Origin: a virus
Strand: one strand, 5' to 3'
DNA length: 21,207 nt
IMG/VR virus record: IMGVR_UViG_3300044627_001038
Location: 1 to 21,207 of that record
Shown here: positions 3,266-21,207 of the stretch, one piece after another
Layout of the letters: each line of letters starts with the position of its first letter
Position numbering within the stretch: position 1 is the first letter of the stretch
Notes under the pieces: model-generated
Seen by the model: only the letters and a program-made list of their open reading frames with translations
The model's database searches: none
What the model was told of the DNA's origin: nothing
Position numbers and translations under genes: made by a program

Positions 3266-3850
3266 ATGCCTCTCAAAGACACTGAGGCAAGAAAGGCATA
3301 CGCGAAAGCGTATGCAGAAACTCGTCGTGAGGAATTAAACGCATACCGTAGAGCATGGAAAGCAGCCAACAAAGAAAAAATGGCTGAGTACGAGAAAAAG
3401 TACAAAGAAAAGAAAGGCGAAGCTCTTGTAATAGCGCAAAGAGCCCGCGTTGCAAAATGGCGTGAAAGGAATCTGGAAACCGTACGTGCTGCAAATAAAG
3501 AGCAGGCAGCTAAGAAGCGGGCAGAAAATCCTGAAAAAATTAAAGCCGCTAAGAAAGCATATGCGCAACGTAAGAAAGATGTTATCAATGCGGCAGTTGC
3601 TCGTAGAAAAGCGGCTAAGTTAAAGCGGACACCCAAGTGGCTAACAAAATTTGACAAGTTGAAGATTCAGTGTGTCTATTCAATAGCAGCAATGCTGACT
3701 CGGGTAAATAACGAGCCATGGCATGTAGACCATATTATTCCCTTGCAAGGAGACTTGGTTTCAGGTTTACATGTACCTTCAAATTTGCAAGTTATGCGCG
3801 GCGTTGAAAACGTGCGTAAACACAAGAAGTTTGAGGTGACGCATGTCTAA
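3266..3850 (+). CDS. HNH endonuclease, probable free-standing homing enzyme
   Basis: A 194-residue protein. Residues 1-125 are Lys/Arg/Ala-rich with loose repeats of the type AYxxxW/Y-K-x-A-N-K-E, likely DNA-contacting helices. The C-terminal catalytic part shows WHVDHIIPLQGD (152-163), with H153, D155 and H156, followed by SGLHVPSNLQVM with N173, then N182 and a Lys-rich end. This matches the HNH pattern, where the first His is the general base and later Asn/His bind the metal. The gene is visibly A-rich compared with its neighbours, sits between two connector-region genes and overlaps the next gene by 8 bases (ATGTCTAA). These are typical signs of an inserted homing endonuclease. It has no strong SD; only 2 bases separate it from the previous stop. 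The target site is unknown. Confidence 0.82.
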   Translation: MPLKDTEARKAYAKAYAETRREELNAYRRAWKAANKEKMAEYEKKYKEKKGEALVIAQRARVAKWRERNLETVRAANKEQAAKKRAENPEKIKAAKKAYAQRKKDVINAAVARRKAAKLKRTPKWLTKFDKLKIQCVYSIAAMLTRVNNEPWHVDHIIPLQGDLVSGLHVPSNLQVMRGVENVRKHKKFEVTHV

Positions 3851-9310: not shown

Positions 9311-11167
9311 ATGCTCAAGAAGATACAACTCAAGCCCGGCGTCAATAAAGAGAACACTAGGTATACCACTGAGGGCGGGTGGTTTGACTGTGACAAAGTA
9401 CGCTTTCGTTACGGCACACCAGAGAAAATTGGCGGCTGGAATCAGCTATCAAACGTAAGCACATTTGAAGGCACGGCGCGTTCGCTGTGGCCGTGGTCGT
9501 CTTTGCTGGGTGTCGGAACGAACCTCAAGTTCTACATCATGTACGGCAGTGCGTACTTTGATATCACGCCGATAAGAGAGACCACAGCCGCAGGGGCCAT
9601 TACTTTTGCTGCTACAAACGGCAGCGCGACCATCACGGCTACTGACATAGCGCACGGAGCAATAACTGGAGACTTCGTTACTTTCAGCGGTGCAGTATCT
9701 TTAGGCGGGAACATTACAGCCACCGTCTTAAACCAAGAATACCAAATCACTGTACTGACGGTTGACACGTACACGTTCACTGCTACCGCTACAGCCAATG
9801 CGTCAGACTCAGGTAACGGCGGCGCAGCCGTAGTAGGCGCTTATCAAATCAACGTAGGTCCAGCTACTCAAACACCTTTGGCTGGGTGGGGCGCGGGGCC
9901 TTGGGGTGGTGGCGCGTGGGGTATCGGGAGCACATCACTTGAGTCCCTGCGCGTGTGGGACCAGCAGAATTTTGGCGAGGATCTGATCTTCGGCCCCACG
10001 GACGGGCCGCTGTACTACTGGGATAATTCTTCTGGTCTTTCCGCCCGTGGTGTAAACCTGACCTCACTTACCGGCGCGACGGACGTCCCGACGGTGCAGC
10101 GGCTGATGCTTGTGTCTGATGCTTCGCGTTTTGTTCTGGCGTTTGGGTGCAATGACTACGGTACAGCTACCCAGAACCCGATGCTGATCCGGTGGTCAGA
10201 TCAAGAAAGCGCGGTCAACTGGACGCCCGCAGCGACCAACCAAGCAGGAAGCCTCACGCTGTCTCACGGGTCTGAAATCACAGGCGTAGCCCAGGTTCGG
10301 CAGGAGATCTTGGTCTGGACAGACATCGCTCTGTATTCGCTTCAGTACCTCGGCCCCCCGATTGTGTGGGGCTCACAGATCCTTGCCGATAACGTCACGT
10401 TGATGAGCGACCGGGCGATGGTCACGGGGTCAGGCGTGCTGTACTGGATGGGTGAAGATAAGTTCTATGTGTACGACGGGCGGGTGCAAACACTCCCCTG
10501 CGATTTGCGGAAACACATTTTTAGTGATTTCAATCAGAACCAGAGAGAGCAAGTCTTTGCTTCTACCGTAGAACAGTTCACAGAAGTCTGGTGGTTCTAC
10601 TGTTCTGCGGATAACAATACTGCGTCTCCTGACAGGTACGTTGTTTACAACTACGTGGAGAAAATTTGGTATTACGGAAACATGGACCGCACCGCATGGA
10701 TGGATGCGAGCATCATCAGCAACTTACCTATTGCGGCTTACGGTGACCAGCTTCTGTACCATGAGTCCGGTGTAGACGACAACACCACAGGGACCGCTGT
10801 GCCGCTTGAGGCGTACATCACCTCGTCAGAATTTGACATTGACGACGGGCACAATTTTGCGTTTGTGTGGCGGGTGCTGCCTGACATCACGTTCCGGGGG
10901 TCTACGGCGAACAACCCCAGCGCAACGCTGACGCTTCTGCCCTTGCAGAACTCAGGCTCGGGGTACAACAACCCTGCATCCTTGGGCGGGTCAGACAACG
11001 GCGCAATCGTGCGCTCGGCAACAGTCCCGGTGGAGGAGTTCACGGGCCAAGTCAACATCCGCGTGCGCGGGCGGCAGATGTCCATCAAAATTGCGTCTAC
11101 AGACCTGGGCGTGACATGGCAGTTGGGCTCCCCCCGGATTGACCTGCGGCCCGACGGAAGGCGCTGA
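9311..11167 (+). CDS. Tail nozzle/stabilisation-like virion protein with FCCH-like insert
   Basis: A 618-residue beta-rich protein. It starts MLKKIQLKPGVNKENTRYTT, then GGWFDCDKVRFRYGTPEKIG and a Trp-rich stretch. Residues about 105-160 (SGAVSLGGNITATVLNQEYQ, ITVLTVDTYTFTA) resemble the FCCH-like small beta domain found in some phage proteins. The main body contains repeated strand blades such as VWDQQNFGEDLIFGPTDGPLY and YVVYNYVEKIWYYGNM, consistent with a propeller. The C-terminus has DFDDG-type strands and RGRQMSIKI. This architecture, and an N-terminal KVRFRxGxPEKIGGW signature, is one I associate with P22 gp10-like tail proteins of podoviruses (nozzle or stabilisation). The match is from memory and unverified. 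GGGG at 9302-9305 precedes the ATG by 5 bases; the stop overlaps the next ATG. Confidence 0.6.
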   Translation: MLKKIQLKPGVNKENTRYTTEGGWFDCDKVRFRYGTPEKIGGWNQLSNVSTFEGTARSLWPWSSLLGVGTNLKFYIMYGSAYFDITPIRETTAAGAITFAATNGSATITATDIAHGAITGDFVTFSGAVSLGGNITATVLNQEYQITVLTVDTYTFTATATANASDSGNGGAAVVGAYQINVGPATQTPLAGWGAGPWGGGAWGIGSTSLESLRVWDQQNFGEDLIFGPTDGPLYYWDNSSGLSARGVNLTSLTGATDVPTVQRLMLVSDASRFVLAFGCNDYGTATQNPMLIRWSDQESAVNWTPAATNQAGSLTLSHGSEITGVAQVRQEILVWTDIALYSLQYLGPPIVWGSQILADNVTLMSDRAMVTGSGVLYWMGEDKFYVYDGRVQTLPCDLRKHIFSDFNQNQREQVFASTVEQFTEVWWFYCSADNNTASPDRYVVYNYVEKIWYYGNMDRTAWMDASIISNLPIAAYGDQLLYHESGVDDNTTGTAVPLEAYITSSEFDIDDGHNFAFVWRVLPDITFRGSTANNPSATLTLLPLQNSGSGYNNPASLGGSDNGAIVRSATVPVEEFTGQVNIRVRGRQMSIKIASTDLGVTWQLGSPRIDLRPDGRR

Positions 11168-12535: not shown

Positions 12536-14002
12536 ATGGCCTACGATCCAAAATCTTTCCTAGATCAGGCCCTGAAGACAGGGTTTCAGTCTATTGTGGC
12601 TGGCCCCAGCGGGGAAGGCGATCCTGGCGGGCAGGTTTTAGACACAGTTGCGGAATTTAGTGGGGTTCAAGTTCGCCCGTTAGTTTACGGAGGAACCGAA
12701 GACGCACCTGAAAACGGGTATATGGTCAGTGCTCCGCTATCAGGAAAATATGAAGGTTACCACCGAAACGATATCTACGACAACAACGGGAAGTTTGTAC
12801 GAACCGCAATTTCTGAACCGCAAAAGACTTCTGGACTGACAGACCTTGCAAAATTTGCAGTAAACGCGGCAAGTTTTGGTGGTTTCGGCCCTATTGCTAC
12901 TGCTGCGGCAAACGCATACAAGGGAATTAACGCTGCCAAGAGTGGTGATTGGCTGTCTGCCGCTGCGTCAATTTTGCCGGGTGTTGGGGTGATACCTGGG
13001 GTTGACCCGGAACTTGCGAAGTCGTTAAAGACTGCCGGTGGCTACGCTAAAACCGGAAGCGCTCTTCAGAAAGCAATTGAGAACAAAGACATCCTTGGCG
13101 CACTAGGCGCAGCAGCTGATATTCCTGGTGTTCCACAAGTACCAAGTGATATCACTGACATTCTCAAGGGTGTTGGACAAGCAAACCGCATACGAGAAGC
13201 TGTAAAGAACGATAACTTCCAAGGACTTTTCAATGAGATAGTGGGGGCTAGTAAAGCTGGTAGCACATCTGGCAATAGATACTTCCCTGGATACGAGACG
13301 CCCGGAGAAATTCAAGAAGGCTTCTTTGATGTCGGTGGACCAGGGTACATGGAGCCCGACGCAGGGGATCTGCCTGACTTGGCGCTTGACCCGTATAAAG
13401 ATGACACTACGCCAGCCTCATTCAAACTGCCAACTGACGAAGATTACGAAGAGCTTGAAAGCATACTGCTACGGTATCCAGAGCAGCAAGAACGTGCTGC
13501 TGAACCCAAAACGTCAATGAGCCCGAACGAACTGAACAAGTTCCTTGAGGCGAACATTGACGATCCTGGCACAATTGATAAGTTGATGCAGGATTACTTC
13601 CCTGAGTTGTACCGCCAGACTATCGACGTAACTGGCACGCTGCCGAAGAAAGATGTCGTCATCTCGGACTGGGATTTCATGGAAGAGCCTGACCGCACGC
13701 CGGGTACGCCGCTTGACACGCCGTCAGATGAAGACAGAACTGTAGCAACAACGGGTACAACGGGTACAACAGGAACCACAGGTACGACGCGGACTACGGG
13801 TGGCGGTGGCGGCGGTGGTGGTGGAAGCAGCACAAAACCAGCGAGTTCTGGGCCAAACCTTGACGCCCTTATGAAGGCTTTGATGCTTATGCAGCAGCGT
13901 CCGCAAGAGCAGAAAGAACAGTACCAGTTGGCAAACATGCCCGACTACGAAGATTTGATGTATGGCCTAAGTAGCGGCGAAACGCCGTACATGAGAGGTT
14001 GA
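12536..14002 (+). CDS. Low-complexity probable internal virion protein with TGT and poly-Gly tracts
   Basis: A 488-residue protein. Residues 1-230 are Gly/Ala-rich and partly hydrophobic (FAVNAASFGGFGPIATAAAN, SILPGVGVIPGVDPELAKSL), like membrane-active parts of ejection proteins. The C-terminal third is acidic, then a linker PDRTPGTPLDTPSDEDRTV is followed by Thr-Thr-Gly repeats and nine Gly in a row (residues about 405-430), and a short helical tail. The linker PDRTPG(T/S)P and the TGT tract recur near the start of the next gene, including an exact 16-base DNA repeat (13691-13706 and 14073-14088), so the two genes share a duplicated or exchanged segment. The start has no clear SD; it begins 1 base after the previous TGA. 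The 5' part looks more A/T-rich than its neighbours. Confidence 0.6.
   Translation: MAYDPKSFLDQALKTGFQSIVAGPSGEGDPGGQVLDTVAEFSGVQVRPLVYGGTEDAPENGYMVSAPLSGKYEGYHRNDIYDNNGKFVRTAISEPQKTSGLTDLAKFAVNAASFGGFGPIATAAANAYKGINAAKSGDWLSAAASILPGVGVIPGVDPELAKSLKTAGGYAKTGSALQKAIENKDILGALGAAADIPGVPQVPSDITDILKGVGQANRIREAVKNDNFQGLFNEIVGASKAGSTSGNRYFPGYETPGEIQEGFFDVGGPGYMEPDAGDLPDLALDPYKDDTTPASFKLPTDEDYEELESILLRYPEQQERAAEPKTSMSPNELNKFLEANIDDPGTIDKLMQDYFPELYRQTIDVTGTLPKKDVVISDWDFMEEPDRTPGTPLDTPSDEDRTVATTGTTGTTGTTGTTRTTGGGGGGGGGSSTKPASSGPNLDALMKALMLMQQRPQEQKEQYQLANMPDYEDLMYGLSSGETPYMRG
13691..13706 (+). repeat. Exact 16-base direct repeat, copy 1
   Basis: GACCGCACGCCGGGTA occurs here near the 3' end of one gene and again at 14073-14088 near the 5' end of the next. 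Both encode the linker D-R-T-P-G in the same frame, and the flanking residues are also similar. Confidence 0.8.
13748..13825 (+). repeat. Thr-Thr-Gly and poly-Gly coding tract
   Basis: Nine-base-period Thr-Thr-Gly codons (aca acg ggt and variants), then nine Gly codons in a row, at residues about 405-430 of the 12536-14002 product. This GGT/GGC run could vary in length by slippage without changing frame. Confidence 0.8.
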
Positions 14003-14003
14003 T

Positions 14004-16307
14004 ATGCCGCTTATAGTAAATCCCACCACGGGCGAGTTGGAATGGCAAGACGATGACTTCACAGAAGTTCCCGACCGCACGCCGGGTAGTCCAACGGACA
14101 CAACTCCGGGCACCGTGAGTCCTGATGACGATAGGACTGTATCTACAACAGGCTTAACGTGGGACGCACTCAGGCGATTTATTACTTCCCCTCAAGGCAT
14201 CGCGGGTCTCGGCGGTGCTGCGCTAAGTTTCCTTGACCGAGCGCCTCCTTCCGGTGGTGGTACGACACAAACCTATCAAGGTCCCGCTCAACTGACCCGC
14301 ACGATGGTGCAGGGGCCGTATGGCCCGTTGGCCGAGTACCAATCTCCGTTCCTCTCTGGTGCTCCGACGTATCAGTCGTTCCAGTCTCCGACGTTCCCTG
14401 GTCTGGTGGGCGCTCCCGCTCCGGGGCCTGCCCCTGCCCCTGCTGAAAGAACCGCTGCCTCCAAGGTTGCGGAGTATCGTCAGTGGGCAAGCTATGGTCT
14501 GTCAGATGACCGTATCCGCCGTATTGCCGAAGTGATCTATGGCCCGCAAACCGATGCAGCGTGGGCAGAACTTCGTCGAATGGCTGGTGCTGACACGGGG
14601 GGTGTGAGGTCTACGGGCACTACGGGCACTACGGGAACTGCAAGAACCACAGGTACTACAGGAACCACAGGAACTGCAAGAACGGCAAGAACCACAGGCA
14701 CCACGGGCGATGTAGGGGTTGATGCTGGACGCGGTGGTATTGGTTATGGTGCGCCCGCTAACCCTGCGTTTTTCTCGCAGCAGCCAAGTTTTACAAGACT
14801 TTCCAAAACATCTACACCATCTCAAATTTCCGCTGCATATGACGAGTTTGTAGCAAGTCGCGGTGGAGACACTGAGGCAAACCGCGCTGAAGCACTGCAA
14901 TTCTTGCAAAGCAAAGGAATAAGTCAGCCAAAGATCAATGACGCATATTCCAAGTTTCAGAAGGGCGAAACGGTAGCTGAGATAACAGGTTTATCTCAAA
15001 AAGACTGGGAGAAAGAAGCTACGTTTGCTGCACGCGAAACCCCAGGAAGTAGAACATTAGGCATTTGGCGAGACCCTACATCAGGCAAAGGGATAGCAGT
15101 AACGGCAGACAGCCGAGGCCAACCCGCCAATTTCACATACATAAGCGAAGAAGGCATCGCTGGTAACTCATCTATATTTCACCCAAGAGATCTTTACGAA
15201 AACGCCAATAAATGGGGCATTGACCTTTCAAATATATGGCAACTAGGCGATCTTTTGGATGAAAAGAAAGTCAAGTACAAGCCGTATGAGCTTTACCAAG
15301 GTACAGGATCGGATCATGGTATTAACTTTTACGACATTGCGCAAGGCGGCCTAGGTACTGCCTATGATTGGACAAAAGATCCGCTGGTGCATCTGAAGGG
15401 GGAGTCTGGGGCTACGTCGCTCGCTAACGCTCAGGCTTTGGCGTCGCGTCTTGGAGTTAAGAAAAACCCATTTGTTACTACTGAGCGAGGAATTGATCCT
15501 TCAAGGTTCACCACATTGGGGGCTGAGCGGGGCGATCCAAGGTCTAATGTCGCTTTTACTGGTGGCACTGCAAGCTGGTACAGAACACCTCAGGAAGCAC
15601 AAAACTACCTTAACCGAATTGGAGGTGGTGTCTTATACGACACACGCGTAGGAGGTACTCGCGGACCAAATCCGTTTGTGCTTAACACCAGTGGGCTTGA
15701 CCTTAAAAGTTCAACCGGGATAGCGAACGCCTACGACCAATTTCTTGCTACACAGCAAGGCGGGGATACGGCGGCATCTCGTGCTCAAGCGCAGAATTTT
15801 TTGCAGGCTCAGGGTGTTCAGCAGCCTCTTATCAACCAAGCCTACGATGTCTACAAAAATGATCTAATGGATCCCAAGGGGATTGCAAGTAAGTACAACG
15901 AGTTCATTTCTTCACGAGGCGGTGACACTGAGGCCAATCGGGCAGAGGCTCTTCAGTACCTGCAAGGTCAGGGCATTGCTCAGCCCATGATCAACCAAGC
16001 CTACGATGTCTTCAAGCAAGGCAATTTTGCTCACGGCGGCGCTGTCCAGATGGAAGACGGCGGGTTCGTGATGACCAAGCGGGCGGTGGACGGCGCTGGT
16101 GGTCCGCAGGGTATACAGCAACTGGTCCCAGGTGCGAGAATGATCCGTGGTCCCGGGCATGGCACAAGTGACTCCATCCCTGCAGTGATCAACGGGCGAA
16201 ACGGACAGACCCCTGCAAGGCTCTCCAACGGCGAAGCCTATGTCCCACCGGGGCGCAACACCAAAGGGCTATACGCCCTGATGCACCAGCTTGAAAGGAA
16301 AGCGTGA
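14004..16307 (+). CDS. Large repeat-bearing probable internal virion protein
   Basis: A 767-residue protein. The N-terminus has the linker PDRTPGSPTDTTPG, then Pro/Gln/Thr-rich sequence. Residues 204-235 are Thr-Gly-Thr/Ala-Arg-Thr repeats. A helical module of about 50 residues occurs three times: 270-322, 569-623 and 624-675, with the shared core (A)Y(D/N)xFxxSxGGDTxAxRAxAxxxLQxxGIxQPxIN. Between the first and second copies lies an unrelated 246-residue block with GFNFYDI-like aromatic segments and no motif I know. The C-terminus (FAHGGAVQMEDGGFVM, then VPGARMIRGPGHGTSDSIPA and ARLSNGEAYVPPGRNTKG) resembles the SIPAxLxxGExVxP ending I recall from internal or tape-measure-like phage proteins. 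GAGAGG about 8 bases before the ATG supports the start. The stop overlaps the next ATG (TGATG). Confidence 0.68.
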   Translation: MPLIVNPTTGELEWQDDDFTEVPDRTPGSPTDTTPGTVSPDDDRTVSTTGLTWDALRRFITSPQGIAGLGGAALSFLDRAPPSGGGTTQTYQGPAQLTRTMVQGPYGPLAEYQSPFLSGAPTYQSFQSPTFPGLVGAPAPGPAPAPAERTAASKVAEYRQWASYGLSDDRIRRIAEVIYGPQTDAAWAELRRMAGADTGGVRSTGTTGTTGTARTTGTTGTTGTARTARTTGTTGDVGVDAGRGGIGYGAPANPAFFSQQPSFTRLSKTSTPSQISAAYDEFVASRGGDTEANRAEALQFLQSKGISQPKINDAYSKFQKGETVAEITGLSQKDWEKEATFAARETPGSRTLGIWRDPTSGKGIAVTADSRGQPANFTYISEEGIAGNSSIFHPRDLYENANKWGIDLSNIWQLGDLLDEKKVKYKPYELYQGTGSDHGINFYDIAQGGLGTAYDWTKDPLVHLKGESGATSLANAQALASRLGVKKNPFVTTERGIDPSRFTTLGAERGDPRSNVAFTGGTASWYRTPQEAQNYLNRIGGGVLYDTRVGGTRGPNPFVLNTSGLDLKSSTGIANAYDQFLATQQGGDTAASRAQAQNFLQAQGVQQPLINQAYDVYKNDLMDPKGIASKYNEFISSRGGDTEANRAEALQYLQGQGIAQPMINQAYDVFKQGNFAHGGAVQMEDGGFVMTKRAVDGAGGPQGIQQLVPGARMIRGPGHGTSDSIPAVINGRNGQTPARLSNGEAYVPPGRNTKGLYALMHQLERKA
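14073..14088 (+). repeat. Exact 16-base direct repeat, copy 2
   Basis: Second copy of the sequence at 13691-13706, 382 bases apart, in the matching linker of the next gene. Confidence 0.8.
14613..14708 (+). repeat. Thr/Gly/Ala-Arg low-complexity coding tract
   Basis: Codons for Thr-Gly-Thr, Thr-Gly and Thr-Ala-Arg units alternate at residues 204-235 of the 14004-16307 product. It is related in style to the tract at 13748-13825 of the previous gene, and copy changes here would keep the frame. Confidence 0.8.
14811..14969 (+). repeat. 50-residue helical module, copy 1
   Basis: Residues 270-322 of the 14004-16307 product. The core SRGGDTEANRAEALQ is identical to that of copy 3 (15873-16028), while the DNA differs in many third positions, so the protein sequence has been conserved. 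Confidence 0.85.
15708..15872 (+). repeat. 50-residue helical module, copy 2
   Basis: Residues 569-623, the more divergent copy: TQQGGDTAASRAQAQNFLQA. It abuts copy 3 directly and is separated from copy 1 by an unrelated 246-residue block. Confidence 0.8.
15873..16028 (+). repeat. 50-residue helical module, copy 3
   Basis: Residues 624-675. It has the same GGDTEANRAEALQ core as copy 1 and the AYDVFK end of copy 2, and runs directly into the FAHGGAV motif. Confidence 0.85.
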
Positions 16308-18127
16308 TGGCTACCGCCCTCGATCCGTCTCAGTCCACGCTGAGCCCAAATTTCGCGCCTTACGTTTACAACTATCTTGCGTTGGGCGAGGGTGCGGCCA
16401 AGCTGCCTTTCCAGCCGTTTACAGGGCAACGCTTTGTTGGGCCATCGAACCTGCAGACGCAGGCGTTCTCGGGACTTGCTGGTCTTCAACAGCCAAGCCA
16501 GTTTCAAACCGCGTCAAATCTGTTCACAGATGCTGGTACGCGGGCGATGGGGTTTGGGTACAACCCGTCTGGAACACCTTCCTATGGGCAGGTGGGTTCT
16601 CAAAACATCTTCTCTCAGTACCAAGCCCCCGACGCTTTCCAGCCTGGGTTGTTCCAGAACCGTTTTCAAGGCCCCGGCGCATACCAGCCACAAGGTGCTA
16701 CGTCTGGTTTCCAGATGCCGTCGCCGTATCAGGCGGGAAACTTTTCGTCAGGGTTTGGCTATCAAGCTGGTCCAACAACGCAGTTTCAGAATCAGTTTCA
16801 AGGCCCCGGCTCGTACCGTCCGTCTACTGACTTTACTCAAGGGATTGGTGGTCAGAGCTACAACGCCAATCAGTTTCAGACGGGGCTCGGCCCGGTCAGG
16901 TCCGTTCAGGACTATATGAGCGATTACGTCGGTGGTGTATCAGACATCGCTGCGCGTGAAGCTACTCGTCAGGCAGACGTAAGTCGGCAGGCGGAGCAGG
17001 GGCGTTTGGCTCAAGCGGGAGCGTTTGGTGGTGCGCGGCAGGCCATCATGGAAGCTGAGCGTCAGAGAAATCTTGGTACGCAGATCGGAGATATCCGAGC
17101 CAAGGGGTTGCAAGAAGCGTTTGACCGTGCACAACAACAACGTCTGCAAGAAGCTGGATTGGGTCTGGAAGCACAACGTGCTACTGAGGCATCGCGTCAA
17201 TTTGGTGCTTCTTTCGGTCAGCAAGGGCTTGGTCAGCTTCTCCAAGCACGGCAAATGGGTGAGCAGGCGCAGCAGTTCGGTGCTCAACAGGGCATGCAAG
17301 CGGCTCAACTGCAGGCGCAGTATGGTTTGTCTGCTCAACAGGCTCAGGAAGCAGCACGCCAGTTCAATGCGGGTCAAACGCTCAACGCTGCACAGATCCA
17401 AGCGCAATTTGGTCTGGATGCCCAGAAAGCGCAGGAGATGTCTCGTCAGTTTGGCGCTCAGCAGGCTATGACGGGGGCGACGACTGGTGCTCAGTTGGGG
17501 CTTCAAGCTCAACAGCAAACCGCTCAGGATCGTCAGTTTGCGGCGCAGCAGGCAATGAACGCGCAGCAGCTTCAGGCTCAGTACGGTCTGAGTGCAGATC
17601 AGGCAGCAGAAGCATCTCGGCAGTTTGCCTCCGGTCAGCGTATGACGGCGGCGGATCTCCAAGCTAGGTTTGGTCTGGACGCTCAAAAGGCCAACCAGAT
17701 GGCCTCGATGCAGGCTCAGCAGTACAACCAGCAAGCAGCACTGGAAGCGAATCGGCAGGCTGAAGCGTCTCGGCAGTTCGGTGCTACTTACGGCATGGAT
17801 GCACTGCGTCAGCAACTTGCAGCAGGTCAGGCACTTGCCGGTTTGGGGCAAACTCAGTATGGTACGCAACTGCAAGGTCTTGAGTCTTTGCTCCGCGCAG
17901 GCGCAACGCAGCAGCAGCTTGCTCAACAGCCGCTTGACTTTGGTTACCAGCAGTTCCAAGAGTCTATGAAATACCCGATGCAGCAAGCTCAGTTCATGCA
18001 GTCTTTGGCGCAAGGTCTGCCGCTTCAGGCGCGACCATATAACGAGGGTGATTCAGGGCTTGGCTCCGCGTTGAGCGGTGGGCTGTCTGGGTTGGCTCTG
18101 TTTAGGGCCCTCTTTCCGAACGGATAA
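16307..18127 (+). CDS. Gln/Ala-rich repetitive virion protein (29-residue repeats)
   Basis: A 606-residue protein. The N-terminal 215 residues are aromatic/Gln/Pro-rich (RFVGPSNLQTQAFSGLAGLQ and two NxFQGPG(A/S)Y units). A conserved-looking helical segment follows at about 228-280, containing GRLAQAGAFGGARQAIMEAE. Residues 337-481 hold an exact 29-residue repeat (five units from 17315, every 87 bases) with AQ(Y/F)GL(S/D)AQ at the start and (A/S)RQF mid-unit. The C-terminus ends in a Gly/Leu patch and ALFPNG. I recall proteins with QAGAFGGxRQAIMEAE from many aquatic phages, annotated as structural. The predicted long helices and lack of membrane segments fit an internal or tail-associated role. 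I chose the ATG at 16307 (overlapping the previous TGA) over the GTG at 16304. Confidence 0.68.
   Translation: MATALDPSQSTLSPNFAPYVYNYLALGEGAAKLPFQPFTGQRFVGPSNLQTQAFSGLAGLQQPSQFQTASNLFTDAGTRAMGFGYNPSGTPSYGQVGSQNIFSQYQAPDAFQPGLFQNRFQGPGAYQPQGATSGFQMPSPYQAGNFSSGFGYQAGPTTQFQNQFQGPGSYRPSTDFTQGIGGQSYNANQFQTGLGPVRSVQDYMSDYVGGVSDIAAREATRQADVSRQAEQGRLAQAGAFGGARQAIMEAERQRNLGTQIGDIRAKGLQEAFDRAQQQRLQEAGLGLEAQRATEASRQFGASFGQQGLGQLLQARQMGEQAQQFGAQQGMQAAQLQAQYGLSAQQAQEAARQFNAGQTLNAAQIQAQFGLDAQKAQEMSRQFGAQQAMTGATTGAQLGLQAQQQTAQDRQFAAQQAMNAQQLQAQYGLSADQAAEASRQFASGQRMTAADLQARFGLDAQKANQMASMQAQQYNQQAALEANRQAEASRQFGATYGMDALRQQLAAGQALAGLGQTQYGTQLQGLESLLRAGATQQQLAQQPLDFGYQQFQESMKYPMQQAQFMQSLAQGLPLQARPYNEGDSGLGSALSGGLSGLALFRALFPNG
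17315..17749 (+). repeat. Five in-phase 87-base (29-residue) units
   Basis: Units start at 17315, 17402, 17489, 17576 and 17663. Each opens with A-(Q/R)-(Y/F/L)-G-L and carries a (R/D)-Q-F near residue 15-17, except the last, which is degenerate. The exact spacing suggests tandem duplication of one unit followed by sequence drift. Confidence 0.88.
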
Positions 18128-18130
18128 ACC

Positions 18131-19861
18131 ATGATGAATCAAATGCAAATGGCGGGACCGATGCCTGGGCAAGCACAGGGTATCCAGCAAGTTTTGCCAG
18201 GGATGATGCCGAAGCAGGGTGCTCCGACGCCCCAAGCGATGGTTGGCCCGCTGTCTCAAATGCACCTGCAGCAGTTGACGCAGATGATGCTCAACCCGCG
18301 CCCGGAAGGCCCTCCGTTGTATGCGGTGCTGTCGGCAATCACTGAGAAGCAGAAGCAAGCCCAGGCGCAGGCGTCAATGCAGCGCCAAATGGCTATGGCG
18401 CAGGGGCAGCAAGCAGCACAGCAGCCTCCTGTAGCGCAGGAAGTCTTGGCGCAAGCGCAGCAGATGCAGGCCGAAGAGCCCGTCATGGCAGCGTATGGCG
18501 GCGAGATGCACGGCTACGCAGGCGGCGGTGCGGTTGCGTTTGGGGGCGGTGGAAACCCTGAAATAGAACAGATCCTAAAGAAGAGTCCGATGATGCGGAC
18601 GCCCGAGGAGAATGAAAAACTCCGCGCCGCCGGTATAGGTTTGGAAAGACGTCAACCCGCCCCAGAAGGCAGCGGAGTAGACAGAGTAAATCGGTACCTC
18701 AAAGGTATTTTTGGAGACCCTTCACCTGTTTCATACTCTAGCGGTATTGATGAAGTACTTGCGGCTGAAAAAGCACGTACCCCTACAGCGATGACTTCGC
18801 AGCAAATGGAGATGGCAACGCAGTCTGCCCCCGTTGCAGCACCACGCCCTCCGGGCGCAACACGTCCGGGTACTGGGATTGCACAAGGTCAAAACCGTCC
18901 ACAAAACCGCCCGCAGATGCCACCCACCGCAGCGCTTGGGCAAGGGCTTGGTAGCTTCGTGGAACAGACTGGCACCCCTGCCCCTGACAAGTGGGCTGAA
19001 ATTGAAGCCGGTGGTATTGCGGGTGTTAAAGCCCTACAAGACATATTGCGCAAGCAGGGTGAATCCGACCCTGAACTGATGAAGCTACGCGAAGCTGCTT
19101 ACAAGTCTTCTCAAGATATTGCCGCACGTCGTGAGCGTGATCGGCAGGCGATGCTGGAGTCTGGGCAGAAACAGTACGATGATATAACTGACCTGCTCAT
19201 TGGTGCAGCGGGTGGGGCAAGAGGCAAGACGTTCGGTGATGTGTTGTCTGGTGCAGTTGGCGGCGCTGGTACTGCTCGTACTGCAAAGCGTGCGGAGTTC
19301 CAAAAAGTTAAAGAAGCTGCTCGTCAGGAACAGAATGCTATTGACAATCTCAACCAAGCGCTGGCTGATAAGCGCGTGGCAGACCGTAGCGGTGATGTGG
19401 ACAAGAGGAGAGAAGCGGACCGTAAGGTTGCTGAAGCTGAACTGAAGGTCACTGATCTGCGTTCTGGTATTCAGGAAAAACGAGCCACTGAAGCCGATCG
19501 CGTTGAACAGCGTAGGCTCACCGCTCGTGGTCAAGACCTGCAACGGCAGACGACACTTGAAGCCGCACGTATCGGAGCCGCAGCGCGTGAAAGTGCATCG
19601 GATATTGCTGAGAAACGATTTGCGCTGCAACAACTTAGGGCTGATCCTGAGTACACTGCTGCAATGAACAAGATCAAGGAGCTTTCAAAAGCTGCTGGAA
19701 TGAGTAATGCTCCAACGGTCCAAGCTGCGTTTAGAGCCGCCCAACAAGAGGCGTTAGCAGTTGCAAAACGGTATGGTTTGACTCCTAAAGATATTGGAGC
19801 CACAGGGGCGGATGCTGGCGCAGCACCGGCTGGAAATGATCCGCTTGGTATCAGGAAGTAA
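18131..19861 (+). CDS. Large coiled-coil virion protein, probable internal protein
   Basis: A 576-residue protein. The first 115 residues are Met/Gln/Pro-rich (MMNQMQMAGPMPGQAQGIQQ) and include AAYGGEM and YAGGGAVAFGGGG (the second motif at nt 18515-18535). A proline-rich, variable middle (about 200-280) is followed by GQGLGSFVEQTGTPAPD and a long charged helical region of about 230 residues (about 295-525), containing KLREAAYKSSQDIAARRERD and EQNAIDNLNQALADKRVADR, likely a coiled coil. The C-terminus is Ala-rich and ends NDPLGIRK. There is no enzyme motif. Neighbours and architecture suggest an internal virion protein that may act with the 16307 and 19864 products. The start ATG at 18131 is 3 bases after the previous TAA; an ATG also lies at 18134. 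Confidence 0.64.
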   Translation: MMNQMQMAGPMPGQAQGIQQVLPGMMPKQGAPTPQAMVGPLSQMHLQQLTQMMLNPRPEGPPLYAVLSAITEKQKQAQAQASMQRQMAMAQGQQAAQQPPVAQEVLAQAQQMQAEEPVMAAYGGEMHGYAGGGAVAFGGGGNPEIEQILKKSPMMRTPEENEKLRAAGIGLERRQPAPEGSGVDRVNRYLKGIFGDPSPVSYSSGIDEVLAAEKARTPTAMTSQQMEMATQSAPVAAPRPPGATRPGTGIAQGQNRPQNRPQMPPTAALGQGLGSFVEQTGTPAPDKWAEIEAGGIAGVKALQDILRKQGESDPELMKLREAAYKSSQDIAARRERDRQAMLESGQKQYDDITDLLIGAAGGARGKTFGDVLSGAVGGAGTARTAKRAEFQKVKEAARQEQNAIDNLNQALADKRVADRSGDVDKRREADRKVAEAELKVTDLRSGIQEKRATEADRVEQRRLTARGQDLQRQTTLEAARIGAAARESASDIAEKRFALQQLRADPEYTAAMNKIKELSKAAGMSNAPTVQAAFRAAQQEALAVAKRYGLTPKDIGATGADAGAAPAGNDPLGIRK

Positions 19862-19863
19862 AT

Positions 19864-21207
19864 ATGAACATAGCGCAGATCCGCGGTAAGTATCCGCAAT
19901 ACAAGGATTTGAGCGATAAGCAGCTTGCGGATGCTCTGCACGCTAAGTTCTACTCCGATCTGCCGGTTCAGGATTACTACAAACGCATCGGGTTTGCACC
20001 TGAAACAACTGTCCTCGGGCAAGTCAAGGAAGGCTTCAAAGGACTCATCCCCGGTGCAGTAGGTCTTGTCGAATCAGCGGCTGTAGGTGCCTCTGCGCTT
20101 CTGCCTGAGGATTACGAGAAGACGGCGCGGGAGAAGATCGCCAGCATCGCTGGCGCAGCCAAGGCACCGTTCGCTGCCTCTGCAGGGTACGAGGATACTG
20201 TTGGGCGTAAGCTGGGTGAAGCCATCGGCTCAACGGTGCCGTTCTTGGCGGCAGGTCCCCTCGGCCTTGCGGGTCGTATTGGTGCGGTTGGTCTGGGTGT
20301 TGGAGCCGGTGCTGGTGAAGCACGCGGGCGTGCCGAGAAGGAAGGTGCTACTGCAGAGCAGCGCAGCACCGCGACGGCGCTCGGGGTCATCCCCGGGGCG
20401 ATGGAAGTCTTCGCACCCTTCCGCATCCTGTCTCGTATTCCTGACACTGCCAAGGCTCAGGGCGTGCAGTTGGTCAAGCGTGCGGCGCTTGCAGGTGGTG
20501 AGGAAGCTGCTCAGGAAGCTGCATCCGGTTTCGCGCAGAACCTGATCGCCAAGGGCGTCTACAAGCCTGAGCAGGAACTCATCGAGGGGCTGGGCGAACA
20601 GGCAGCCTACGGCGGTGCTACTGGTGCCATCGTGCAGGGCTTGATGGATTTGGCCTTGGGTCGTCGCGCACGTGCTGCGCAGCCTGCTCCGGGAACCTTG
20701 CCCGGGGAAACGCCCATCGAGCGTGCTGAGCGCCTGAAGGCAGAAGCGGAAGCAGCCAAGGCTGCAGCGCAACCCCCAGCACCGCCTGCGGCGGAGATCC
20801 CACCCCTGCCCGACACCTACGCTGAACTTGTTCTGTACAGCGAACAACTGAAGACGCTTCCAAAGTCCAAGGAGCGTGATGAGGCGTTGAAGGCAGCGGC
20901 TGAAAAACGCAAGGCGCTTAACGTAGCGTACATTGAGGAGCAGCGCTCCACCAGCGAAGCAGCCAAGGGGTTCATGACTGCCGAAGAAGCGGCAGCAGCA
21001 CAGATCACCCCCCGTGAAGAAGTCACGGCACCGCCCGAAGGACAAGCTCCTGCAGCGCCCATCGAAGAGCCCAAGGTCCGCAAGGTGGGTGAACCACCCG
21101 CGACTGGCTTGCAGCCCGCTGACATTGAAGCCCTCGGCATCAGCAAGAAGCAGCCGATCTACCGGCGCATGCTGGGGAAAGACCTTGAGAACCCCGAGCA
21201 GCGTGCA
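19864..21207 (+). CDS. N-terminal part of a large polyvalent-type virion protein (runs off the window)
   Basis: The frame is open from ATG 19864 to the right edge, giving 448 residues without a stop; the end lies outside. The N-terminus MNIAQIRGKYPQYKDLSDKQ, then ADALHAKFYSDLPVQDYYKR, is one I recall from very large phage polyvalent or internal virion proteins (I-R-x-K-Y-P-Q-Y-x-D-L-S-D-x-Q-L-A). A Gly/Ala/Leu-rich, probably membrane-active region follows at about 120-160 (FLAAGPLGLAGRIGAVGLGV), then LAGGEEAAQEAASGFAQNLI and GGATGAIVQGLMDLALGRR (about 200-280). Beyond residue 285 it is a Pro/Ala/Glu-rich linker with charged helices. Such proteins usually carry enzymatic or ejection domains further on, which cannot be seen here. 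It may cross the cell envelope at infection, but this is inferred. Confidence 0.7.
   Translation, partial: MNIAQIRGKYPQYKDLSDKQLADALHAKFYSDLPVQDYYKRIGFAPETTVLGQVKEGFKGLIPGAVGLVESAAVGASALLPEDYEKTAREKIASIAGAAKAPFAASAGYEDTVGRKLGEAIGSTVPFLAAGPLGLAGRIGAVGLGVGAGAGEARGRAEKEGATAEQRSTATALGVIPGAMEVFAPFRILSRIPDTAKAQGVQLVKRAALAGGEEAAQEAASGFAQNLIAKGVYKPEQELIEGLGEQAAYGGATGAIVQGLMDLALGRRARAAQPAPGTLPGETPIERAERLKAEAEAAKAAAQPPAPPAAEIPPLPDTYAELVLYSEQLKTLPKSKERDEALKAAAEKRKALNVAYIEEQRSTSEAAKGFMTAEEAAAAQITPREEVTAPPEGQAPAAPIEEPKVRKVGEPPATGLQPADIEALGISKKQPIYRRMLGKDLENPEQRA

Follow-up and report, generated by a model that had tools for sequence, protein, structure and literature searches.

We found that the 29-residue repeat of this phage protein is probably part of an alpha-helical segment of elastic length and locked phase; the protein probably serves in DNA ejection, in a phage with a short tail. 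Among relatives, most changes in segment length amount to whole helical turns, and this points to a long, rod-like helix whose register the phage maintains. The window –the whole stretch of DNA analysed here– is the entire virus record of 21,207 bases, probably a piece of a phage genome. That phage is short-tailed, with DSL-LC04 and HMO-2011 as relatives, and the window has structural proteins in common with both.

The 29-residue array and its protein

The repeat protein contains 19% Gln and 16% Ala (606/607 residues), and its start codon is probably the ATG at 16,307 (AGGA at 16,296-16,299) rather than the GTG at 16,304. It holds 19 prolines in residues 1-200 and none in residues 201-540, and the spacer from anchor 1 to anchor 2 spans 294 residues (Table 1). 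We set aside a possible antisense gene, a 357-aa TTG-start ORF opposite the repeat (16,940-18,013); a long open antisense frame would be expected from Gln/Ala-rich coding DNA.

Table 1. Features of the window and of the repeat protein
Feature	Position	Strand	Remark
SU10-type adaptor PF24175	2568..3263	+	mark of short-tailed phage
Second SU10-type adaptor PF24175	4624..5271	+	
Virion structural protein phrog_3287	9311..11167	+	DSL-LC04 gene at equivalent place annotated stabilization protein
Neighbouring structural ORF, 767 aa	14004..16307	+	DSL-LC04 gene at equivalent place annotated tail tape measure protein
Repeat protein CDS, 606 aa, probable DNA-ejection protein	16307..18127	+	ATG start; ORF opens with GTG at 16304
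N-terminal part, residues 2-200, Pro/Phe/Gln-rich	16307..16903	+	19 prolines in residues 1-200
Proline-free stretch, residues 201-540	16904..17923	+	mostly helical by prediction
Anchor 1, GAFGG motif at residue 239	17018..17032	+	G, A and next G invariant (83-sequence alignment)
Outlying RQF module, residue 298	17195..17203	+	
29-residue unit 1, residues 338-366	17315..17401	+	
29-residue unit 2, residues 367-395	17402..17488	+	
29-residue unit 3, residues 396-424	17489..17575	+	
29-residue unit 4, residues 425-453	17576..17662	+	
29-residue unit 5, residues 454-482	17663..17749	+	second half degenerate (RQF lost)
Outlying RQF module, residue 490	17771..17779	+	
Anchor 2, 36 residues from G533	17900..18007	+	conserved in relatives
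Downstream ORF, 576 aa, Gln-rich start	18131..19861	+	weak phrog_26797 match
Large ORF start, cut by window end	19864..21207	+	N-terminus matches phrog_10691 (3925 positions)

Self-comparison of the protein placed five 29-residue units in register at 17,315-17,749 with zero gaps, as a first, sequence-only reading had claimed. Within residues 331-490, self-similarity was found at lags of 87 (49% identity), 29 (44%) and 58 residues (40%). At lag 29 the mean BLOSUM score was 1.81, against -0.12 (sd 0.18) in 1000 shuffles of which the highest value at any lag was 1.27; lag 29 also topped all tested lags across the entire protein.

That reading had called the repeat exact, which holds for its length but not for its sequence: the units share 28-66% residue identity and 34-61% DNA identity. 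This low pairwise DNA identity explains why Tandem Repeats Finder left the array unreported, and it rules out a recent DNA duplication as the array's origin. Unit positions A1, G4, L5 and A7 are identical in all five units. Of the motifs that the reading had called conserved, (Y/F)-G-L is present in four of five (LGL in unit 3) and RQF likewise in four of five (absent from unit 5). Further RQF modules, degenerate ones, flank the array at residues 298, 323 and 490, some of them off the 29 grid. Residues and bases have diverged under a perfect register; thus, the unit length was kept while the sequence drifted.

Among 76 non-redundant relatives tested, 39 carried a repeat above all shuffles. Their lags were 29 (12 relatives), 33 (nine), 66 (five), 18 (three), 22 (two) and 14 (two), with 11, 28, 32, 40, 58 and 67 seen once each. 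Length changes in steps of 29 residues, as initially proposed, do occur in places –the spacer of L007 is longer than that of the window protein by 29 residues and that of L009 by 145 (5x29), and the spacers of L002 and L010 differ by 116 (4x29)– but other lengths occur too. As sole unit length, 29 had to be abandoned: units of other lengths, which the sequence-only reading had itself named as evidence against it, account for all but 12 of the 39. The idea about geometry fared better, with 29 residues making eight turns at 3.625 residues per turn and unit lengths of 11 and 18 present in relatives. As 31 of the 39 lags come to whole turns at 3.625 with a tolerance of 0.17 turn, and most length changes are also whole turns, the conserved quantity is the helical phase and not the number 29.

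A family of putative DNA-ejection proteins

At the genomic level, three large structural ORFs, the repeat protein among them, stand in a row before a very large ORF. This run resembles the ejection-gene runs of P22 (gp7, gp20, gp16), T7 (gp14, gp15, gp16) and DEV (gp73, gp72, gp71). With P22- and T7-type phages the window also shares a short tail with an adaptor-type tail machine, as judged by its two PF24175 genes. Besides phrog_10691, the ORF at 19,864-21,207 weakly matches a virion RNA polymerase (phrog_2206, E 0.0027). The window genes further include a putative holin/endolysin-like stretch, read from the frames, and a 194-aa Lys/Ala-rich ORF (3266-3850) with a C-terminal stretch that we take to be HNH-like (WHVDHIIPLQGD).

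The upstream 767-aa protein has its own repeats, a segment of about 45-50 residues in three copies (GGDT at residues 287, 586 and 639), and its C-terminal end is a GPGxGTSDSIPA-type motif. In DSL-LC04, the gene at its place has an end that matches tape measure profiles. Two successive structural ORFs contain short tandem repeats of 9-base period (13,748-13,824 and 14,611-14,704), which encode Thr/Gly-rich, TGT-type linkers. A fusion of the repeat protein with the upstream 767-aa protein, sought by the GPGTGTSD-type motif, was absent from the 11 long relatives examined.

Relatives were gathered by several scans: the first gave three loci, a profile scan 49, and four further scans contributed 80 loci each (the best 80 of 117, 524, 451 and 278 matches, three of these totals being read as at least that number). 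Most relatives have a stretch centred on GA(F/Y)G and, close to the C-terminus, a 36-residue second anchor. The core motif was present in 298 of the 377 loci, which include duplicates, and a confident second anchor in 231, corresponding to 199 unique proteins and 60 distinct spacers. Before counting, 3 of 51 proteins were left out of the first spacer set and 67 of 298 out of the main one, which comprised 197 unique cores. The spacer measures 59 residues in the shortest, repeat-less forms, and 439 in L009. In genome contigs we found nine family loci, eight from MAGs or uncultured bins and one on an Azospirillum soli contig; the latter is a weak family member (E 2e-5), possibly from a prophage.

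For the protein family, an indication of function came from phrog_4287. At the equivalent place, DSL-LC04 encodes a 294-residue protein that matches this family, annotated 'DNA ejection protein', at 6.9e-9. Matches at E<=0.01 were found in 9 of 11 family proteins scanned (weakest 0.0091), with Pag-Yong1 best at 2.1e-19, L050 at 6.2e-11 and HTVC023P at 2.3e-10, the best ones over most of their length; the two missed were P0002 and L041, of which the C-terminal 272 residues were scanned. The window protein had no phrog_4287 match of its own, as hmmscan at E<=0.01 listed only phrog_6610, and tblastn of it directly against named phages gave no match; its link to them thus runs via shorter relatives. 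The window family profile aligned with the Pag-Yong1 member at both ends (hhalign probability 99.4%). The family resembles phrog_4287 in that relatives match and its profile aligns, whereas the window protein is longer and carries its repeat block between the conserved ends. By homology and gene order, we infer that the repeat protein is a virion protein and probably a DNA-ejection protein.

Homology to the ejection proteins P22 gp7, P22 gp20 and T7 gp15 was undetectable (hhalign probabilities of 0.2, 0.0 and 0.1%), and a profile search of PDB sequences gave no match. Foldseek returned 18 PDB matches, none significant (best E 3.6; the PhiM1 ejectosome at rank 2), and two BFVD matches at E<=0.001, both uncharacterised phage proteins.

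Some relatives carry repeats of another kind in their N-terminal part. Residues 85-275 of P0002 (L001:4971-7430), the closest long relative, form a repeat rich in Pro, Phe and Gln that advances by 15, 30 and 59 residues, of which 15 does not correspond to complete helical turns; a repeat of this type stayed under significance in the window protein. The N-terminal ~200 residues of L023 hold a WFNxNxVT...AGVxxxDIDWMKxxGY-type segment three times (lag 72) ahead of the family core. Similar segments occur in the separate upstream ORF of L001 and at the N-terminus of the L024 protein.

The wide variation in spacer length could bring to mind a tape measure, whose repeat number fixes a physical length as in long-tailed phages. 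Lengths of tape measure proteins vary by 11-residue units and show 11-11-18 patterns marked by F/W, according to part of the published account (PMC3271669), and the DSL-LC04 gene upstream of the family member is annotated as a tail tape measure protein. However, profile searches in 50 records of relatives found the SU10 adaptor in 42, a sheath (PF04984) in none and PhageMin_Tail (PF10145) over cut-off in none, where the last two profiles would overlook some tape measure proteins. These phages look short-tailed and would thus lack a long tail whose length could be measured, and we regard a tape-measure role as very unlikely. The window family shares with tape measure proteins the variation by whole-turn units (described in part of PMC3271669), but those belong to long-tailed phages, the family units are mostly of 29 or 33 residues, and the window units lack the Trp marker of tape measure units.

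Spacer lengths and helical phase

A spacer that forms a single helix is expected to change in length by whole turns. We scanned the spacers for all periods from 2 to 16.7 residues, none of them preselected; in the course of the analysis we ourselves chose the tolerance of 0.17 turn, the cut-offs for anchor scores and the widths of the jitter. The first 23 distinct spacers had their top peak at 3.621 residues (R 0.667), a value reached by 0 of 5000 random sets in the band 3.5-3.75 and by 19 of 5000 anywhere. With all 60 distinct spacers, R was 0.464 at 3.62-3.67 (reached by 3 of 3000 jittered sets). The 27 with a second-anchor score above 55 gave a Rayleigh R of 0.786 at 3.620, which 0 of 3000 jittered sets reached at any period, and the 15 spacers of up to 130 residues an R of 0.871 at 3.598 (0 of 3000). 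The signal was weaker in the 37 spacers new since the first set, with R 0.497 at 3.672 (98 of 3000). Peaks overall lay at 3.60-3.67 residues, and control lengths from the same proteins, before the first motif and after the second, showed no such peak.

One inherited change would otherwise count many times, so we compared pairs separated on a tree. The flank tree of 194 tips was cut into 50 pairs with different spacers and no common branch. Differences lay within 0.17 turn of a whole number in 36 pairs, against 17 expected, and jitter of up to 5 residues reached the observed value in 0 of 5000 trials. Without multiples of 29, 32 of 46 pairs were in phase; with one entry per distinct difference, 22 of 33 (binomial 1.3e-4). 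The 14 pairs out of phase included differences of 132 (twice), 154, 165, 168, 78, 49, 41 and 34 residues. Distinct differences above 60 residues were in phase in 10 of 17 cases at 3.62 and in 4 of 17 at 3.60. Small pitch errors accumulate along long helices and blurring is thus expected there, but the long differences are a weak part of the evidence.

Gln/Ala-rich coding DNA is prone to expansion, and some close relatives differ by whole 29-residue units, as they would if replication slippage in a low-complexity gene had produced the repeat and its geometry were unselected. Against such a neutral origin, the units are old (to judge by their DNA identity) and yet kept their length, and in independent lineages, once multiples of 29, 11 and 7 are set apart, 18 of the remaining 22 differences are still in phase. 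Slippage also leaves the near-absence of prolines unexplained: the 25,435 spacer residues include eight, and the spacers of 191 of 199 proteins lack proline altogether. We find a neutral origin highly improbable.

Residue patterns within the segment point to the same pitch. In residues 239-533, Ala, Gly and Ser had a best period of 3.615 (absolute z 4.60, against a maximum of 3.10 in 300 permutations), and the median best period in 26 relatives with spacers above 110 residues was 3.626. The small-residue stripe had its top period at 3.660 in relatives with other repeats; in repeat-less relatives it appeared as a secondary peak at 3.642 (z 12), the top period being 2.084. Gln lay opposite the small residues in the 26 relatives (183 degrees, R 0.87), an opposition partly forced by two mutually exclusive classes, and in the window protein Gln alone stayed within permutations (absolute z 2.47 vs. 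3.08). A single hydrophobic stripe at 3.62 was rejected, as large hydrophobics in residues 239-533 peak at 2.233 instead. This value is the second harmonic of 3.62, as expected from two opposite stripes. In repeat-less relatives large hydrophobics peak at 3.97.

The monomer structure prediction that had been proposed as a check came out mostly helical, but at low confidence and with breaks at some unit boundaries. A first AF2 model (mean pLDDT 57, pTM 0.25) was usable for helix content only. The second (residues 195-607, 83 sequences), still of low confidence with mean pLDDT 72.8 and pTM 0.30, placed helical blocks at 201-237, 244-321, 373-427 and 460-570, with block pLDDT mostly 60-87. Helix breaks were predicted at 322-344, 356-361, 370-372, 428-430, 444-448 and 457-459; they fall in units 1, 2, 4 and 5, and unit 3 has none.

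Several of these breaks coincide with YGLS/FGLD or RQFNAG/RQFASG sites, and Gly is invariant at unit position 4. Both would fit a helical hairpin or solenoid, in which a pair of short helices would make up each unit, turning at (Y/F)GL[SD] and RQF(N/S)xG and with S/D/T-A-x-Q N-caps. Nevertheless, the breaks are of low confidence, shared only in part with the first model, and absent from unit 3, where LGL replaces YGL. A solenoid would predict neither whole-turn changes in relatives with units of 11, 18, 22 and 33 residues nor a small-residue stripe near 3.62 in repeat-less ones. On balance, hairpins seem unlikely to us.

A proposed phase-locked helix and its counterparts

For a continuous helix of locked phase, the reading that we prefer, the GAFGG region and the QQPLDFGYQQFQ...YP region, both conserved, would serve as end modules and be joined by a proline-free helix that grows or shrinks in evolution by whole turns (7, 11, 18, 22, 29 ... 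residues). Such steps would keep the Ala/Gly/Ser packing face continuous and preserve the relative orientation of the end modules. The 29-residue unit, eight turns at 3.625, would be the version nearest to an unstrained, straight helix. A natural reason for keeping phase would be that many copies pack side by side, in contact through their small-residue faces. Packed in this way, the helices may build a putative homo-oligomer, shaped as a bundle or a barrel and located in the virion or spanning the host envelope, and the protein may be ejected together with the DNA.

The periodicity near 3.6-3.67 and the lags of 11, 18, 22, 29 and 33 residues liken the segment to coiled coils of the hendecad/heptad type (11/3, 18/5). 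Heptads (3.5) and hendecads (3.67) give a helix a left- or right-handed supercoil, and a helix tolerates insertions that fit it whereas others break it, as described in part of PMC4786415. In a literature that takes in few subscription journals, we looked for repeats, hendecads or helical phase in ejection and internal virion proteins and for in-phase length variation; earlier cases were found for tape measure proteins and for SMC arms, and none on this phage family. For tape measure units, packing side by side along a helix face has been proposed (part of PMC3271669). In SMC arms, natural and engineered lengths obey helical and superhelical periods, of 3.5 and 91 residues (part of PMC5344682), but these arms are unrelated cellular proteins with heptad coiled coils.

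Another counterpart is the DNA pilot protein H of phiX174, a decameric alpha-helical tube. As set out in part of PMC7354561, its wall-crossing, Gln-rich helix consists of hendecads (11/3) and then heptads (7/2), and the inside of the tube is largely lined by Gln, Asn and Arg. The profile search of PDB sequences, with 0 matches, gave no sequence relationship between H and the window family, which differs also in its sevenfold range of helix length and in belonging to a dsDNA phage. It is conceivable, though doubtful, that a putative Gln-faced alpha-helical barrel conducts dsDNA out of the short-tailed phage, as an independent counterpart of the H tube whose length evolves freely in whole turns. 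As a single straight helix at 0.15 nm per residue, the 294-residue spacer would measure ~44 nm and those of relatives ~9 to 65 nm. With such a span and a sevenfold length range, a fixed-length periplasmic ruler or span is unlikely, and a simple periplasmic tube is hard to reconcile.

If the phase-locked helix is right, natural length variation alone would reveal helical phase without a structure. Long continuous helices could then be tested for by sequence alone in virion proteins that evolve fast, for which structure predictors are unsure (pTM 0.30 here). A single design rule would be common to tape measure proteins, the phiX174 H tube and podoviral ejection proteins. For the ejection proteins of aquatic short-tailed phages, it would amount to a testable rule of evolution, with lengths free and phase fixed.
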